Assembly: GCF_027257955.1 (NCBI RefSeq)
Contig: NZ_JANZNQ010000018.1
Location: 1-64,000 of the forward strand
Direction: 5' to 3'
Source of the DNA: Zhongshania aquatica
GTDB lineage: Bacteria > Pseudomonadota > Gammaproteobacteria > Pseudomonadales > Spongiibacteraceae
Length of the DNA stretch: 64,000 bases
Shown here: positions 54,669 through 64,000 of the stretch, one piece after another
How positions within the stretch are numbered: the first letter of the stretch is position 1
Layout of the letters: every line of letters begins with the position of its first letter
Program-made: the position numbers and the translations under genes
Notes under the pieces: model-generated
What the model saw: only the letters and a program-made list of their open reading frames with translations
Told to the model about the DNA's origin: nothing
The model's database searches: none

Positions 54669-56468
54669 TTATTTTGCCGCGAGATATTTCCGCCAAGCGC
54701 CAAAATGACTAATGTCTTCTGCACCGGCCAAGCCGGAGGCTTCGCAGATAAAACCACTTACCTGACTGCCATCTTGCAGTTTGACTTTGCCAATACCGAG
54801 CGGCGCTGGAATGCCCGCAACAAAGCTGCCGAACTCGCTAGCAGGCAACGACCACACTTCGACTTCGATAGCACGGCCTTCGCCCTCTGGCGCAATCACC
54901 ATACCGGGCCTAAACGGTGGGCCACCCGCTAGGGCATACAGTTTATAGTCTGGCGATGACAGGGTTTTAGAAACCAAGGTCGCGCCGCGCTCAATCAACT
55001 GCCAGTTCAGCGGCTGGCCTTGTAAATGGGCGCCACACACCGCCACCGAAATACGCTGTTGGTTTTGAACCGGCGCCGTGCTCAATGCCTGATAGTCAGA
55101 CTGATCCTTACCTAAGGGCAATTTAAACAGTTGCTGTAGACGATTCGCTACCGACAATAGGCGCCGATCAGTAAAGGCTTCACCGACCAAGGTTAAACCA
55201 AAGGGGAAACCGCTATCGGTAAATCCGGTTGGCACCGCGACACCGGCCAAGTCGAATAGGTTCATGTAATTAGTGTAATAGCCCAGATTACTGTTCAGGG
55301 TAATTGGGTCAGCATTTACCGCCTCGATACTATACGGGCTGCCCGCCGTTGGGGTGAGCAAGCAGTCCACGCCGTCTAATACCGCTGTCGCCGCTTTACG
55401 TAGTGCCTTTAGGCGGTATTGTGCTCTAAAGGTATCGACCGCTGATTTATTTTCGCCTGCGCCGATGATAGTACGGGTAACATCCAATAACGCCTCTGGC
55501 TGCTTCTGTATCATTGGTGACGTGGCAATAAACCGTTCCGCCACCCACGGGCCTTCGTACAGCAGCCGTGCCGCTTCGATAAAGGGCGCAAAATCGACTT
55601 CGACTAATTCCACACCACTGCTGGTAATCGCCGCCAGCGACTTTTTATAGCACTGCGCATAATCCTCGCTGCCGAAAAACGATAACTGCTCTGCAGGCAA
55701 TACGCCCATTCGAAGCGGCCCCTGCCACTGGCCATAATGCCGCGCGCCATTAGCGAAGGGATTATTCCGGCTGTAAGCGTCTGTCGCATCTTCACCTTCC
55801 GCAACGGTGAGAATTGCATTGGCGTCATCGCACTGCAGAGCAAAAATGGTAATGCAATCCAAGGATCGGCACGCTGGCAACATGCCACTGGCAGAGAGCA
55901 AACCAATACTGGGTTTCACGCCCACTAAATTATTAAAACAGGCCGGTACTCGGCCCGACCCTGCGGTATCAGTACCCAGCGAAAATGTCGCCATGCCTAA
56001 GGCTACCGACACTGCCGACCCAGCGCTGGAACCGCCGCTAATCATGCTTGGGTCGAAGCTATTTTTACAGGCGCCATAGGGTGAACGTGTTCCCACCAAG
56101 CCCGTCGCAAACTGATCTAAATTCGTTTTACCAACAGGAATCGCACCCGCATCGATCAACCGCTGTACAACAAACGCCGAACGCTCCGGTGTGTATGCAA
56201 AGCTTAGACAAGCCGCCGTTGTCGGTACACCCGCCAAATCAATATTATCTTTGATCGCAAAGGGAATACCGTACAAGGGCAAGGTATCTGGCGAGACAGC
56301 GTCCAAGCGCTTCAAATAAGGTTCTAGCTCAGCTGAGCTTAGCTGATGAATCCAAATATTATGATCCTGATATTCTTTGCAGCGCTCTGCAATAGCGGCC
56401 ATAAGCTCACGAGGTGTCACAGTGGCCGCCGCATAAGCGGCACGTAATTCAGTCAATGAAAGATTCAT
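54669..56468 (-). CDS. atzF: Allophanate hydrolase
   Basis: 599 residues. Amidase-signature domain (about 1-440) with Lys in IPFAIKDNIDLAG (about 89) and Ser-Ser-Ser in GGSSAGSAVSVALG (about 144) plus TDTAGSGRVP. A C-terminal domain (about 450-599, GPPFRPGMVIAPEGEG) is typical of AtzF/DUR1 allophanate hydrolases. It converts allophanate to 2 NH3 and 2 CO2. It overlaps the carboxylase gene by 4 bp and is last in the guanidine cluster. Confidence 0.93.
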   Translation of the reverse strand: MNLSLTELRAAYAAATVTPRELMAAIAERCKEYQDHNIWIHQLSSAELEPYLKRLDAVSPDTLPLYGIPFAIKDNIDLAGVPTTAACLSFAYTPERSAFVVQRLIDAGAIPVGKTNLDQFATGLVGTRSPYGACKNSFDPSMISGGSSAGSAVSVALGMATFSLGTDTAGSGRVPACFNNLVGVKPSIGLLSASGMLPACRSLDCITIFALQCDDANAILTVAEGEDATDAYSRNNPFANGARHYGQWQGPLRMGVLPAEQLSFFGSEDYAQCYKKSLAAITSSGVELVEVDFAPFIEAARLLYEGPWVAERFIATSPMIQKQPEALLDVTRTIIGAGENKSAVDTFRAQYRLKALRKAATAVLDGVDCLLTPTAGSPYSIEAVNADPITLNSNLGYYTNYMNLFDLAGVAVPTGFTDSGFPFGLTLVGEAFTDRRLLSVANRLQQLFKLPLGKDQSDYQALSTAPVQNQQRISVAVCGAHLQGQPLNWQLIERGATLVSKTLSSPDYKLYALAGGPPFRPGMVIAPEGEGRAIEVEVWSLPASEFGSFVAGIPAPLGIGKVKLQDGSQVSGFICEASGLAGAEDISHFGAWRKYLAAK

Positions 56469-59400
56469 GACAACTCCTCCAAAATAAGTACAGACTGGCC
56501 GGCACTCACCCGCGCGCCCTCGCGTAATAGTTGTTTTTTAACCCGTCCCGCCTGCGGCGCAAATACAGCAATTTCCATTTTCATCGACTCCAGCAACAGC
56601 AGCGGTTGGCCAAGCTCAACCACATCGCCCTCCTTCACCAGCAACTGCCAAACACTACCCGCAACAGAACTATCAACGGGAATTTCGCCTTCTTGCAAAC
56701 TCACAATGTCGGCGGCGGCGTCAATCTCCGGCGCTTCATAATGGAATTGTCCGTCGGCATGCCAACGCGCCAATTCTTCGGCAAAGGCTTGCTCGCGCTT
56801 CTCGGTGTGGGTATTAATTTCAGTAGAATTATCTGCCAGCATTTGCTGATAATCCGCGAGCGAAAATTCGCCCTCCTCGATCCGTAATGAATATTTACCT
56901 AAGGGGAAATCGTCACGGATTTGCAGCAACTCTTCTTGGCTAACTTCGTAGAAACGAATTTGATCAAAGAAGCGCAGTAAATAAGGTTCGGTAAACTCCG
57001 TGGTACGGCGATAACGATTCCACATCTGCAGGGTTCTACCAATAAACTGGTAGCCACCCGGCCCTTCCATACCGTACACACAGAGATAGGAACCGCCGAT
57101 ACCCACCGAGTTTTCAGCTGTCCACGTCCGCGCCGGATTGTATTTTGTGGTCACCAAACGATGACGAGGATCAACCGGCGTCGCCACCGGCGCACCCAAA
57201 TACACATCGCCCAAACCCATAACAAGATAGGCGGCATCAAAGACGATATCCTTCACCGCATCGATACTTTCAAGACCATTGATACGACGAATAAACTCAA
57301 GATTGCTCGGACACCAGGGCGCATTCTCGCGCACCGATTGCTGATATTTCGCAATGGCTTGGCGGCAGGCATCGTCGTCCCAGCTCAGCGGTAAATACAC
57401 TGTACGAGACGGCACATTTAACTGTTCTAACTGTGTGGAAAGGTGTTTTTCTGCCGAGCTTAATACCGCGAGTAATCCCGCCAAAGAAATAGTTTGGGAA
57501 TCGTAATGCAATTGCAAAGAGCGAATGCCCGGTGTCATTTCACGCACACCAGTCACTGGATTGTTCTGCAAATATTGCATTAATGCGTGTGCTCTAAAAC
57601 GAAGGCGAATATCTAATTCCTGCGGGCCATACTCCACTAGCAAAAAGTGATCGCCAGCAACACGGTAAACCACATCATCGCCAACGTCATCAGAACTAAG
57701 GCGCTGAACAATAGGCGATGGCAACTCGCTCAAAGGAGCAACAACTGGCGTTTCACCGGACAGTGCGTCAATAGTACTCCGCTGCGCGCGCTCGGCGGCG
57801 ACCGCGTCATCTACGGTTACCGCAACGAATTTAATTTTATCTCCTGCCCGCAACTGACCAAGCTTCCACAAATCCGCAGTAATGACTGTTGCGGGGCAGA
57901 CGAACCCACCAAGGGACGGCCCATCGGGGCCAAGAATCACCGGCATATCACCGGTGAAATCTACGGTGCCAAAGGCATAGGCGTTGTCGTGAATATTCGA
58001 TGGATGCATGCCCGCTTCACCACCGCTATCCCTCGCCCATGTAGGTTTAGGGCCAATCAAACGCACACCAGTGCGGCTGGAGTTGTAATGCACTTCCCAG
58101 TTCGCCGCAAAAAACGCCTCTATGTCTGGATCGGTGAAAAAATCGGGCGCACCGTGCGGCCCGTAGATCACGCGCAGACGCCAATCGTTGCTAATCTCTG
58201 GTTTGAGCTGTGCTGGAAGCTCCTGCGCTTGCGCGACAGTATCAAGCAACGACAACACATCACCCACTCGCAGGGCGCGGCCGCTATGGCCGCCAAATTG
58301 CCCTAGGGTGAAGGTTGAACGCGACCCTAAATATTCCGGACATTGAATACCACCCGCCACCGCCAAGTAACTTCTAGCGCCTTCACTGATACGGCCTAAA
58401 TTTAGTGTCTGGCCAGCTTCGATGTGAATCACTTGCCACAATGCCAGGGTTTGCCCGTCTGGCCCCAAAGAACCACCAAACAAAGTCGCGGGAATGTTTG
58501 CGCCGCCGATCACCACATCGGTAGCCTCGCTAAACTGCAGGCTTGGCCCTTGCAAAGTAATCTCTAAACCCGCCGCACTATCGTCATTTCCCAATAGCCG
58601 ATTCGCTAAACGAAAAGAATAATTATCGAAGGGGCCAGATGGCGGTACACCGACATCCCAATAGCCGCTACGGCCGGGATAATCTTGAATGGTTGTTTGC
58701 GTACCCGCCTGCAACACGTCAATACGGTGTGGCTGCCAAATAAAATCATTCAGGTAGCGGGTGGTGATCAATCCCTCTTTCAACAGAGGATCATTGAGCA
58801 AGGCCCGCAAGTAATCACGGTTACTCACAATGCCATAAAGTTCAGTGGCGTTCAGCGCCGCTGCGACACCTTTAAGCGCTGCTTTACGCTCTGGGGCATG
58901 GAAAATAATTTTAGCCAGCATGGGATCGAAATACGGCGATACTTCAATACCACTGTCGAGCCAGTGATCTATACGCAAACCCTCGGCCTGAGGAAATGAG
59001 ACCTTGCTGAGCAAACCTGCGCATGGCTGGAACTGCCGGTAAGGGTCTTCAGCATAAACTCGCACTTGCACTGCATGGCCTTTTGGAACTAGATTTTTCC
59101 GCAACTCAGACAGCTCTGGCAAGTCGCCGCTGGCCAGCATTAGCATCCACGCAACAAGGTCGATACCCCACACCACTTCGGTAACGCCATGCTCCACTTG
59201 CAGGCGGGTATTTACTTCTAAAAAGTAAAATTCGCGACTGTCTTGATCGTAAATAAACTCGACGGTGCCGGCGTTGCGGTAGTTCACCGCCGACAATAAA
59301 TCTTCCGCTTGGGTATACAATAAATGACGCACGGAGTCAGGTAAGTTAGGCGCTGGACATTCTTCAACGACCTTTTGATTCCGACGCTGTGCTGAACAGT

Positions 59401-60079
59401 CACGCTCGCCGATGGCGACTACTTGGCCATAACCGTCGCCAAATACTTGAACTTCTATATGCCGAGCGCGGGCGATAAATTTCTCAAGAAAAACACCGTC
59501 GTTTGAAAAATTATTGCCGCCTAATTTTTTAACTTTTTCGAAACCGCTGCGCAAATCCGCCTCATCGTGGCAAACCTGCATACCGATACCACCGCCACCT
59601 GCGGTGCTCTTAAGCATGATTGGATAACCTATGCCAGCAGCTTGACTCACCGCACTTTCCAAGTCGCTTAATAAACCGGTGCCCGGTGGCAATGGCACGC
59701 CGACGGATTCTGCAATTTCCCGCGCCTTATGCTTCAAACCAAAATCGATCATATGCTGGGCGGTAGGCCCAATGAAGGCAATGCCCGCGGCTTCGCAGTC
59801 GCTAACGAAGGCGGCGTTTTCGCTGAGGAACCCGTAACCGGGATGAATCGCCTCCGCGCCACAGCGCTTGGCAATATCGAGGATTTTTTCAACATTTAAA
59901 TAGGTATCCGCAGCACCGCCGTCACCCAAGCTATAGGCTTCATCGGCATTGCGCACATGCAAGCTGCGTGCATCGGCTTCGGCGTAGACAGACACTGCGG
60001 TGATATTAAATTGTTTAAGGGTGCGAATAATCCGCGTTGCGATAGCACCACGGTTGGCAATCAATACTTTCTGGAACAT
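56465..60079 (-). CDS. Biotin-dependent guanidine (urea-type) carboxylase
   Basis: 1204 residues. Biotin carboxylase domain (about 1-450: KVLIANRGAIATRI, GGGGIGMQV, FLEVNTRLQVEHGVTE); KipA/KipI-like carboxyltransferase domains (about 465-1080: TTIQDYPGRSGYWDVGVPPSGPF begins them); C-terminal biotin carrier with Lys in ESMKMEI (about 1170). Such proteins are usually annotated urea carboxylase. Most bacterial homologues next to DUF1989 genes act on guanidine, giving carboxyguanidine. The adjoining DUF1989 pair and the guanidine-II riboswitch at 60090-60133, ten bases before the start, make guanidine the likely substrate here. ATG 60079. Confidence 0.9.
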   Translation of the reverse strand: MFQKVLIANRGAIATRIIRTLKQFNITAVSVYAEADARSLHVRNADEAYSLGDGGAADTYLNVEKILDIAKRCGAEAIHPGYGFLSENAAFVSDCEAAGIAFIGPTAQHMIDFGLKHKAREIAESVGVPLPPGTGLLSDLESAVSQAAGIGYPIMLKSTAGGGGIGMQVCHDEADLRSGFEKVKKLGGNNFSNDGVFLEKFIARARHIEVQVFGDGYGQVVAIGERDCSAQRRNQKVVEECPAPNLPDSVRHLLYTQAEDLLSAVNYRNAGTVEFIYDQDSREFYFLEVNTRLQVEHGVTEVVWGIDLVAWMLMLASGDLPELSELRKNLVPKGHAVQVRVYAEDPYRQFQPCAGLLSKVSFPQAEGLRIDHWLDSGIEVSPYFDPMLAKIIFHAPERKAALKGVAAALNATELYGIVSNRDYLRALLNDPLLKEGLITTRYLNDFIWQPHRIDVLQAGTQTTIQDYPGRSGYWDVGVPPSGPFDNYSFRLANRLLGNDDSAAGLEITLQGPSLQFSEATDVVIGGANIPATLFGGSLGPDGQTLALWQVIHIEAGQTLNLGRISEGARSYLAVAGGIQCPEYLGSRSTFTLGQFGGHSGRALRVGDVLSLLDTVAQAQELPAQLKPEISNDWRLRVIYGPHGAPDFFTDPDIEAFFAANWEVHYNSSRTGVRLIGPKPTWARDSGGEAGMHPSNIHDNAYAFGTVDFTGDMPVILGPDGPSLGGFVCPATVITADLWKLGQLRAGDKIKFVAVTVDDAVAAERAQRSTIDALSGETPVVAPLSELPSPIVQRLSSDDVGDDVVYRVAGDHFLLVEYGPQELDIRLRFRAHALMQYLQNNPVTGVREMTPGIRSLQLHYDSQTISLAGLLAVLSSAEKHLSTQLEQLNVPSRTVYLPLSWDDDACRQAIAKYQQSVRENAPWCPSNLEFIRRINGLESIDAVKDIVFDAAYLVMGLGDVYLGAPVATPVDPRHRLVTTKYNPARTWTAENSVGIGGSYLCVYGMEGPGGYQFIGRTLQMWNRYRRTTEFTEPYLLRFFDQIRFYEVSQEELLQIRDDFPLGKYSLRIEEGEFSLADYQQMLADNSTEINTHTEKREQAFAEELARWHADGQFHYEAPEIDAAADIVSLQEGEIPVDSSVAGSVWQLLVKEGDVVELGQPLLLLESMKMEIAVFAPQAGRVKKQLLREGARVSAGQSVLILEELS

Positions 60080-60089
60080 AGCAATCCGG

Positions 60090-60133
60090 TAACGGGCCGT
60101 CCCGTTATGTCATACGACAGTGGCCGTCCACTG
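60090..60133 (-). promoter_or_regulatory. Guanidine-II (mini-ykkC) riboswitch
   Basis: Read on the - strand: hairpin P1 CAGTGG-ACGG-CCACTG (60133-60118), a 10-nt linker, then hairpin P2 TAACGGG-ACGG-CCCGTTA (60107-60090), then ten bases (with CGGA) to the carboxylase ATG. Two short perfect hairpins with ACGR tetraloops are the defining features of the mini-ykkC motif. Its two loops dimerise by CG contacts and bind guanidine, generally turning on translation by freeing the ribosome site next to P2. Confidence 0.93.
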
Positions 60134-60150
60134 AAGATGATTTAAATTAG

Positions 60151-60176
60151 TCAGACGTCGGGGGTCAGGCGTCTGA
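60151..60176 (-). terminator. Hairpin between the second DUF1989 gene and the riboswitch
   Basis: TCAGACG (60151-60157) and CGTCTGA (60170-60176) form a perfect 7-bp stem with a 12-nt loop, nine bases after the stop of the 60185-60826 gene. No T-run, so it may be a weak terminator or an mRNA-processing or stabilising hairpin that separates the transporter/deiminase part from the riboswitch-controlled part. Confidence 0.45.
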
Positions 60177-61557: not shown

Positions 61558-62334
61558 TTAGACTTGCTCCGTCTGTCTGCCAAGGGCCAGACTTTCATCA
61601 ATTTCATCTAATATTTCTTGCTCACAAACACCCACCGGCAAATCATAGGTAATCCCTGCTCCGTAGGCATTGGGTGCGTGCGCATCCACTCGACGCTTAT
61701 CAAATACCCACAGCCGTGTACCCAAATGAAACCCCTCTTTTAAGTCGTGGGTCACCATAAAGACGGTGAGCTTATGCTTGCGCCATAGATCCAATACCAG
61801 CTCATGCATGTCTGCACGAATACCCGGATCTAGCGCACCAAAGGGTTCGTCTAATAATAAAATTCGAGGTTTTAAAATTAAGGCCTGCGCGATGGCTAAA
61901 CGCTGACGCATACCACCGGACAGCTCATCTGGGTAACGATGCTGCATATGGGTAAGTCCGACAATGTTTAGTAATTCGGCGGCCTCCTGACGAGCGGCCC
62001 TTTTTGCCCCGCCGGATAAAAAACCTAAGCGCGTTTTCTCAAAGGCACGGGCGATCACTACATTTTCTAATACGCTTAAGTGGGGAAATACCGAATACTG
62101 CTGGAAAACCACACCGCGATTTGCATCCGGCTCCGACGGTATAGGCTTGCCATCTAATAAAATACTACCCTGCGACGGGGTTTCTGTACCCAGGAGCATT
62201 TTCAAAAAAGTGCTTTTCCCGCAACCGGAAGCCCCGACCAAGGTAATAAACTCGCCTTCTTTTACCGTGGCGGAAATGTTTTCCAAAATGACATTGTCAC
62301 CGTAGCGCTTCCAAATATTTTTAATTTCAATCAT
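61558..62334 (-). CDS. ABC transporter ATP-binding protein (guanidine-type, NitT/TauT family)
   Basis: 258 residues. Walker A GASGCGKSTF (37-46), Q-loop FQQYSVFPH, signature LSGGMRQRLAIAQAL (about 137) and Walker B ILLLDEPFGALD (about 162). ATPase of an importer of the nitrate/taurine group. Its start overlaps the permease stop by 4 bp. With a permease and a binding protein in front and guanidine-degrading enzymes behind, it probably imports guanidine. Confidence 0.9.
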   Translation of the reverse strand: MIEIKNIWKRYGDNVILENISATVKEGEFITLVGASGCGKSTFLKMLLGTETPSQGSILLDGKPIPSEPDANRGVVFQQYSVFPHLSVLENVVIARAFEKTRLGFLSGGAKRAARQEAAELLNIVGLTHMQHRYPDELSGGMRQRLAIAQALILKPRILLLDEPFGALDPGIRADMHELVLDLWRKHKLTVFMVTHDLKEGFHLGTRLWVFDKRRVDAHAPNAYGAGITYDLPVGVCEQEILDEIDESLALGRQTEQV

Positions 62335-63155
62335 GACTTACCCTCCTGCTGTGCATGCCAGGGAAAGGCAAAGCGGCTTAGTTGGGCGAGTAAATAATCG
62401 ATCGTAAATGCCAAGACAGTGACCCACGCTACGTAGGGCAAAATGACATCCATAGACAAGTAACGGCGAACTAAAAACACGCGATAGCCCAAACCGTCAG
62501 TTGAGGCAATTGCTTCGGCTGCGATTAAGAACAACCACGCCGAACCAAGTGACAAGCGCACTGCATCGATAAGCCTAGGCATCAATTGCGGAATCAAAAC
62601 CCGCAAGATAATTTGTCCACTATTGGCACCCAAGGTTTGGGCTTTAACCAATTGTTCTCGGGGAATTTCCAAGGTCCGCTTTTGAATATCTCGGGCAATG
62701 AAAGGTGTAACACCAATGGCAATTAGCGCGACCTTTGACACTTCACCCAAACCAAACACAATAAACAAAACCGGCAAAAGGGCCATCGGCGGCACCAGCG
62801 ACACCACGGTAAGCAAGGGCGCGAAGCTGGCATTTAAAACTGGTAATGCGCCCGTCATTAATCCAAAGAACATACCCAGCGATGCTGCTATTAGCATGCC
62901 CAGCCCCAAGCGACGGAGGCTACTCACGGTATCCTGCCAAAACAGGTAATCGCCACTGCGCTTACTCGGTTCAAACGCGAGACGCTGAATAGCGTCGCCC
63001 ATTTGCGAGAAACTAGGGAGCAACTTATCGGCAGCGTTTTCAGCCAGCCGCGCATCTGACGCTGAAATATACAGCAGAATAATTGCCGCGAATGGCAGCA
63101 GAGCTAAGCCGATTCGCCATATTCTCGAGGGTGTAAAATTAATAAGTCGCTTCAT
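62331..63155 (-). CDS. ABC transporter permease (NitT/TauT family)
   Basis: 274 residues with about six membrane helices and the permease coupling loop around EIPREQLVKAQTLGANSGQI (about 165-184). Inner-membrane subunit of the same importer as the ATPase and the binding protein. ATG 63155 is 103 bp downstream of the binding-protein stop, and its stop is coupled to the ATPase start. Confidence 0.9.
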   Translation of the reverse strand: MKRLINFTPSRIWRIGLALLPFAAIILLYISASDARLAENAADKLLPSFSQMGDAIQRLAFEPSKRSGDYLFWQDTVSSLRRLGLGMLIAASLGMFFGLMTGALPVLNASFAPLLTVVSLVPPMALLPVLFIVFGLGEVSKVALIAIGVTPFIARDIQKRTLEIPREQLVKAQTLGANSGQIILRVLIPQLMPRLIDAVRLSLGSAWLFLIAAEAIASTDGLGYRVFLVRRYLSMDVILPYVAWVTVLAFTIDYLLAQLSRFAFPWHAQQEGKS

Positions 63156-63257: not shown

Positions 63258-64000
63258 TTACAACTTACCGTCTGCGGCCATTTGCATATAACTAGGATCA
63301 AAGCGGAATTTAATATTTTCGCTATTACCGTATACGCCAGCGGGAGTTTCGATACCGATAAATCCTGCATCCGGCGCCCCTTCACCCAATAGACCGTGGG
63401 CAAAAGAGAACTCGGCAACATTTTTCATGGTGGTTTTTAGCGCCGTGCTGTTAGTAAATTCAACCGCGCTGGCTGGGGTGTAAAACATTTTCGTACTGGC
63501 TAGCTGCGCTTCATAACCAGCCAAATCGGTTCCCGACGCAGTACCCATTTCAGTTCTTGCGGCAACGCCGGCTTTACCTGAATCACTCATGGTAGCCATG
63601 ATTTCATACCACGCACCGGTTAAGGCCTTACCTAGGTTTGGATTGGCTTTTAGCACGTCGGTGTTAATCACTAGCAGGTCGATGATTTCACCTGGGATTT
63701 GCGAAGAATCGAATACTTTATTCGAACCCGGCATCGTCAAGATTTCACTTAACAACGGATTCCAAGTTGCTACCGATGTCACGCCGGCAGTTGGGAATAC
63801 CGCAACCATATCGGCGTCAGATGTGTTTACCACAGTGACGTCAGACTCGCTCATACCGACGCTTTCTAGGCCTCGCGCTAGCAGGTAATGAGACACACTG
63901 AGTTCGACCAAATTAACTTTCTGGCCTTTGATGTCTTTTAGGTCTTTATAACCTTTCAACACCACGCCGTCGTTGCCGTTAGAGAAGTCACCCACAATCA
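63258..64000 (-). CDS. ABC transporter periplasmic binding protein (partial, N-terminus beyond window)
   Basis: At least 247 residues; the frame is open through the window edge, so the signal peptide and start are missing. Family pattern of taurine/nitrate-type binding proteins seen with urea carboxylase clusters: IVGDFSNGND, LVELSVSHYLLARGLE, and DLLVINTDVLKANPNLGKAL. It captures the substrate in the periplasm. First visible gene of the cluster; the operon promoter, and any ykkC-I riboswitch, would lie beyond 64000. Confidence 0.88.
   Translation of the reverse strand, partial: IVGDFSNGNDGVVLKGYKDLKDIKGQKVNLVELSVSHYLLARGLESVGMSESDVTVVNTSDADMVAVFPTAGVTSVATWNPLLSEILTMPGSNKVFDSSQIPGEIIDLLVINTDVLKANPNLGKALTGAWYEIMATMSDSGKAGVAARTEMGTASGTDLAGYEAQLASTKMFYTPASAVEFTNSTALKTTMKNVAEFSFAHGLLGEGAPDAGFIGIETPAGVYGNSENIKFRFDPSYMQMAADGKL

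Follow-up and report, generated by a model that had tools for sequence, protein, structure and literature searches.

The two-riboswitch layout of guanidine operons is already in print. In Klebsiella, Raoultella, and Erwinia, a guanidine-I riboswitch precedes the importer and deiminase genes, and a guanidine-II (mini-ykkC) riboswitch precedes the genes for the carboxylase and allophanate hydrolase (PMC12186494). The carboxylases of such operons can be told from urea carboxylases by a single residue, which is Asp in guanidine carboxylases and Asn in urea carboxylases (PMC12186494). In Vreelandella (Halomonas) boliviensis, guanidine-II is located between cgdB and the guanidine carboxylase gene gca, with the ABC transporter and deiminase genes and a leading guanidine-I upstream, and in-line probing yielded a KD of 44 µM for guanidine-I and KDs of 93 µM (guanidine) and 83 µM (methylguanidine) for guanidine-II, which does not discriminate between these two compounds (PMC12508155). 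The guanidine-II element of Escherichia coli gdx (sugE), which controls export, has ACGA and ACGG loops and a 13-nt linker that is proposed to mask the Shine-Dalgarno sequence (PMC9300104). The E. coli aptamer and mutants derived from it bind guanidine with KDs of 59, 133, 165, and 264 µM when the fourth letters of the two loops are AA, AG, GA, and GG, respectively; the double-ACGG form is thus the weakest binder, yet it still binds guanidine, and double-G forms are rare in nature (PMC9300104).

The element described here adds another case and extends the layout to Zhongshania. We analyzed a 64,000-nucleotide stretch of the Zhongshania aquatica genome (hereafter the window), at the end of which an operon is read from the minus strand. 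It is headed by a guanidine-I riboswitch (RF00442, 85.4 bits against a gathering score of 63) at contig positions 64363-64491 (C17; L001:10364-10492), just outside the window and 28 nt before the ATG of a gene for an ABC substrate-binding protein (TIGR03427, "putative urea" in NCBIfam; 63258..64000 and on to contig position 64334). Then follow an ABC transporter permease (62331..63155) and an ATP-binding protein (61558..62334), neither of which has a specific NCBIfam model over cut-off (for the latter, among the 25 listed), and the genes matching the NCBIfam families UAAP1 (TIGR03425; 60845..61555) and UAAP2 (TIGR03424; 60185..60826), which probably encode the two subunits of a carboxyguanidine deiminase. 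We take UAAP1 and UAAP2 to be these subunits by comparison with the published operons (PMC12186494, PMC12508155). The inner element comes next, directly before the carboxylase gene (56465..60079), whose stop is overlapped by the allophanate hydrolase gene atzF (54669..56468; NCBIfam). A guanidine-I element is also present upstream in all eight named relatives that were scanned for it.

The order of the two switches is the same as in Klebsiella, Raoultella, and Erwinia, which are different organisms and are likened to Zhongshania by layout rather than by structure. The position of guanidine-II and the genes upstream of it are also as in Vreelandella, where, however, mgdH and mgdL stand between gca and atzF, and where ligand binding has been measured, whereas the Zhongshania element is known from its sequence. 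With guanidine-I in front of the transporter and deiminase genes, the entire operon is probably guanidine-controlled, with the inner guanidine-II as a second layer. The original prediction had placed a riboswitch in mid-cluster, downstream of the transporter and deiminase genes, and this placement stands, but its corollary that guanidine could raise the carboxylase independently of import was too strong, because those genes are themselves led by guanidine-I. A terminator scan around guanidine-I (L001 10300-10720) found none, so this leading element may act on translation rather than through the usual terminator. A literature search combining Zhongshania with guanidine listed one paper that, by its title, concerns blue-light sensing.

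The gene downstream of the inner element is annotated as a urea carboxylase (TIGR02712), but most likely encodes a guanidine carboxylase, because Asp replaces the Asn of the yeast urea carboxylase. In an alignment with Kluyveromyces lactis urea amidolyase (5i8i), Asp707 falls on Asn1330, which is presumably the position meant by the Asp/Asn rule, and Asp is found at this specificity position in 36 of 36 relatives' loci. The eight named relatives that lack the double hairpin also carry Asp, and the residue alone therefore does not predict the riboswitch. For this marine gammaproteobacterial genus, an operon annotated by its "urea carboxylase" would accordingly be reassigned to guanidine assimilation.

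The inner element consists of two hairpins on the minus strand, a strand that the original prediction had left unstated. P1 (60118..60133) has six base pairs and an ACGG loop (CAGUGG-ACGG-CCACUG), P2 (60090..60107) has seven base pairs and an ACGG loop (UAACGGG-ACGG-CCCGUUA), and all pairs in both stems are Watson-Crick. A 10-nt linker (60108..60117) connects the two, and a further 10 nt (60080..60089), the presumed translation-initiation region with a weak Shine-Dalgarno-like GGA, separate the end of P2 from the carboxylase ATG at 60079; the predicted hairpins and spacings were thus accurate to the base. This double hairpin occurs once in the window and in none of 100 shuffles, and a looser pattern, allowing ACGR loops, is matched once in the 4.49-Mb genome, where its reverse has no match. 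Folding energy alone is unexceptional (76 nt, z -1.23). Two GC-rich, ACGR-capped hairpins with GG/CC closing pairs, a short linker, and a position directly before the start codon are features shared with the E. coli gdx element, from which the Zhongshania element differs in having two ACGG loops and a linker of only 10 nt with no detectable anti-Shine-Dalgarno sequence, and in that it would control degradation.

The scan with the Rfam mini-ykkC model proposed in the original prediction gave a divided answer. RF01068 matched the element significantly in a 501-nt search (E 0.0011; E 0.041 in a search of 19 kb), but its 27.9 bits fall below the gathering score of 32, the curator's threshold, seemingly because of the ACGG loops and the short linker. 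The element is consequently absent from a window-wide Rfam scan at the gathering score, and a whole-genome RF01068 search at E ≤ 0.001 does not list it either (0 of 1). Homologous elements before the same gene behave variably: eight of eight loci from the genus match at E ≤ 1, only one of them passing 32 bits, and scores above the threshold were obtained for L078 (40.2; a genus member) and L009 (33.9), while L072, in which both loops are ACGA and all else is the same, reaches 31.6.

Because the Rfam score fell below gathering, we derived R1, an independent model, from 35 carboxylase-linked elements of other genera of the order, with Zhongshania excluded. R1 matches the window at 60136-60090 (43.4 bits, E 1.1e-10), where its second-best match has an E value of 0.58, and in the whole genome the element is the only match at E ≤ 0.001 (E 7.5e-9). 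The underlying alignment, A1, was derived from 56 carboxylase rows of the order, assigned to this gene by blastp, by removing six with a stem shorter than 4 bp (50 of 56 had stems of at least 4 bp) and two exact duplicates, and by picking 35 of the remaining 48 by eye so that near-copies were thinned. In the 35 sequences thus selected for stems, 96.1% of the cells pair, compared with 25-52% in slid controls, and both sides of the pair have changed in 82 cells, where shuffles give 24.7 and none of 500 reaches 82; as the search pattern fixes the innermost two pairs of P1 and three pairs of P2, the evidence from covariation rests on the outer pairs. The hairpins and their loops, the match to a model from which the genus was excluded, the covariation of the stems, and an Asp-type carboxylase 10 nt downstream all support the predicted guanidine-II class, and we are highly confident that the element is a guanidine-II riboswitch that lies within a guanidine-assimilation operon and acts on the carboxylase.

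The carboxylase gene was found in 17 of the 18 Zhongshania genomes searched and, with the same cut-off, in none of three genomes of the sister genus, and all 17 carry the two hairpins directly before it (16 by script; L079 escaped the script and was read separately, and L077, which has a G-U pair in P2, escaped the pattern used for the order-wide tallies but is one of the 16). The loops, the inner stems, and the spacing persist down to a carboxylase identity of 74%, and P2 has undergone changes that preserve its pairs (UAACGGG/CCCGUUA, UAGCGGG/CCCGCUA, and CUGCGGG/CCCGCAG). The closest named genomes are Zhongshania, at 90-92% carboxylase identity. Among 19 named relatives (the long matches L003-L021 of 33 loci, with L022-L035 set aside), the hairpins are present in 11, including Zhongshania, Marinimicrobium, Haliea, Thiotrichaceae, and Catenovulum, and absent in eight, which comprise cyanobacterial, Fibrobacter, acidobacterial, Hyphomicrobium, and Opitutaceae records. 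L181 and L183 gave no row under the stricter pattern, and L182 does not enter the tallies. A class-wide scan with a looser pattern matched at least 108 of 369 genomes, and was not used for counts because the reversed-pattern control was also frequently positive in GC-rich genomes.

By analogy with the known class, from which ligand, ON direction, and translational level are all taken, the operon would work in two layers. Guanidine-I at the head would control the mRNA that encodes the transporter and the carboxyguanidine deiminase, and guanidine-II would act directly at the ribosome-binding site of the carboxylase gene: as guanidine rises, it would be bound by the two ACGG loops, which would also bind one another, and more carboxylase would be translated, probably together with more allophanate hydrolase from the overlapping gene. 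A translational ON switch is the most likely mode, given the element's position on the initiation region and the lack of any terminator-like site in a promoter and terminator scan around it; the same scan produced one promoter-like site, on the opposite strand and at chance level.

A role of the linker as an anti-Shine-Dalgarno sequence, which is the model proposed for E. coli and not strictly a class-defining feature, finds no support here: pairing of the linker with the start region is no better than in swapped or shuffled controls. The case is weakest in the genus itself (n = 16), with -2.81 kcal/mol compared to -2.98 kcal/mol for swapped partners and 155 of 200 controls as good. When the comparison is widened to the carboxylase-linked elements of the order (n = 50), controls do as well in 28 of 200 cases with swapped partners and in 62 of 200 with shuffled ones, and for exporter-linked elements (n = 12) there was no clear excess either (122 of 200 and 18 of 200). 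The downstream-gene labels are rough, the script having named 12 genes exporter (SMR)-like and 27 "other", 10 of which by eye begin like SMR proteins; the carboxylase label of the 56 rows comes from blastp and is unaffected by this. These results call the model of a linker that masks the Shine-Dalgarno sequence into question for carboxylase-linked elements.

Both loops of the window element are ACGG, which is its less usual feature. The fourth loop letters of its 17 carboxylase-linked elements are GG in 12, AG in three, and AA in two, compared with 47 AA, 39 AG, seven GA, and five GG among 98 motif matches in the order outside this set, which include two exporter-linked elements of the genus and some probable chance matches (for example L117, with stems of 2 and 3 bp), one of the five GG matches being probably such a case. 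With carboxylase-linked elements alone, GG is found in 12 of 16 from the genus and 2 of 56 from the order (p 9.5e-9, a statistic that ignores relatedness), and the distribution of GG over the carboxylase tree requires four changes, with 4 of 500 shuffles as low. L072, from a sister species, groups with six GG members with good support. From three bases upstream of P1 to the end of the ATG, a span of 60 nt, it differs from the window solely in the fourth letter of both loops, which is A in place of G, and the two elements are thus a natural minimal pair. This pair suggested that the loop letters of P1 and P2 might change together as a general rule; no such association exists across the 98 matches of the order (Fisher p = 1.0).

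One may speculate that the fourth loop letter is a naturally varied affinity setting in the genus, with GG as the standard and one species having switched both loops to ACGA, and that the low affinity of GG delays the carboxylase until guanidine is abundant, after guanidine-I has turned on import and deimination, which would make this a two-threshold operon. We offer this tentatively and consider it rather unlikely as a whole. The role of the fourth letter in setting a threshold rests so far on in vitro work with mutants of the E. coli aptamer (PMC9300104), and the window and L072 elements could serve to test in cells whether this letter sets the switching threshold.

The same low affinity could also be read as drift, with the element being a guanidine-II riboswitch that no longer responds at physiological guanidine, so that in practice guanidine-I alone controls the carboxylase. 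That no loop combination measured in E. coli binds more weakly than ACGG/ACGG (PMC9300104) and that pairing between the linker and the start is unsupported would fit such an element; double-ACGG aptamers nevertheless still bound guanidine (PMC9300104), and the conservation of loops, inner stems, and spacing across the genus, together with the pair-preserving changes in P2, is unlike decay, which makes this reading improbable. It is very improbable, too, that the element mainly senses another guanidino compound in this genus, for example methylguanidine. Guanidine-II aptamers do bind methylguanidine and aminoguanidine as well, and the Vreelandella element does not discriminate (PMC12508155), but the leading element of the Zhongshania operon is a guanidine-I, and no methylguanidine-processing gene was seen between the carboxylase gene and atzF, which overlap. 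Chance hairpins or an unrelated inverted repeat, to which a folding energy within 1.3 sd of shuffles and a sub-gathering Rfam score might point, are hardly credible for a motif that is unique in its genome and matched by R1 at E 1e-10, and are refuted by the covariation and by the conserved position in 17 of 17 genomes of the genus.

Besides the carboxylase-linked guanidine-II riboswitch, similar elements were observed before other genes. In two genomes of the genus, an SMR exporter-like gene is preceded by a further guanidine-II element (L176, G375:C2:95376-96571; L177, G388:C2:321523-322720), with the linker CACCNCUC, which, unlike the linkers of the carboxylase-linked elements, could be an anti-Shine-Dalgarno sequence. 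Guanidine-II-like pairs also precede a gene for a short membrane protein (beginning MRTTKDRIRQ... or MRTPKDRIRQ...) at L150, L151, and L153; these proteins resemble PACE-family efflux proteins. At L125, L127, L178, and L180, such pairs stand before genes for related larger membrane proteins, possibly transporters, in place of the carboxylase. Elsewhere in the window, positions 56-125 of the plus strand match a Group II intron domain (RF00029, 49.5 bits). Finally, a degenerate heptamer repeat (TCAGACG/CCTGACC/CCCGACG/TCTGA) that is capable of forming a hairpin lies on the minus strand at 60151-60176, between UAAP2 and the riboswitch. It has eight matches in its own genome at up to three mismatches, against none for the reversed pattern, and, judged by eye, is present before the carboxylase gene in some members of the genus and absent in others.
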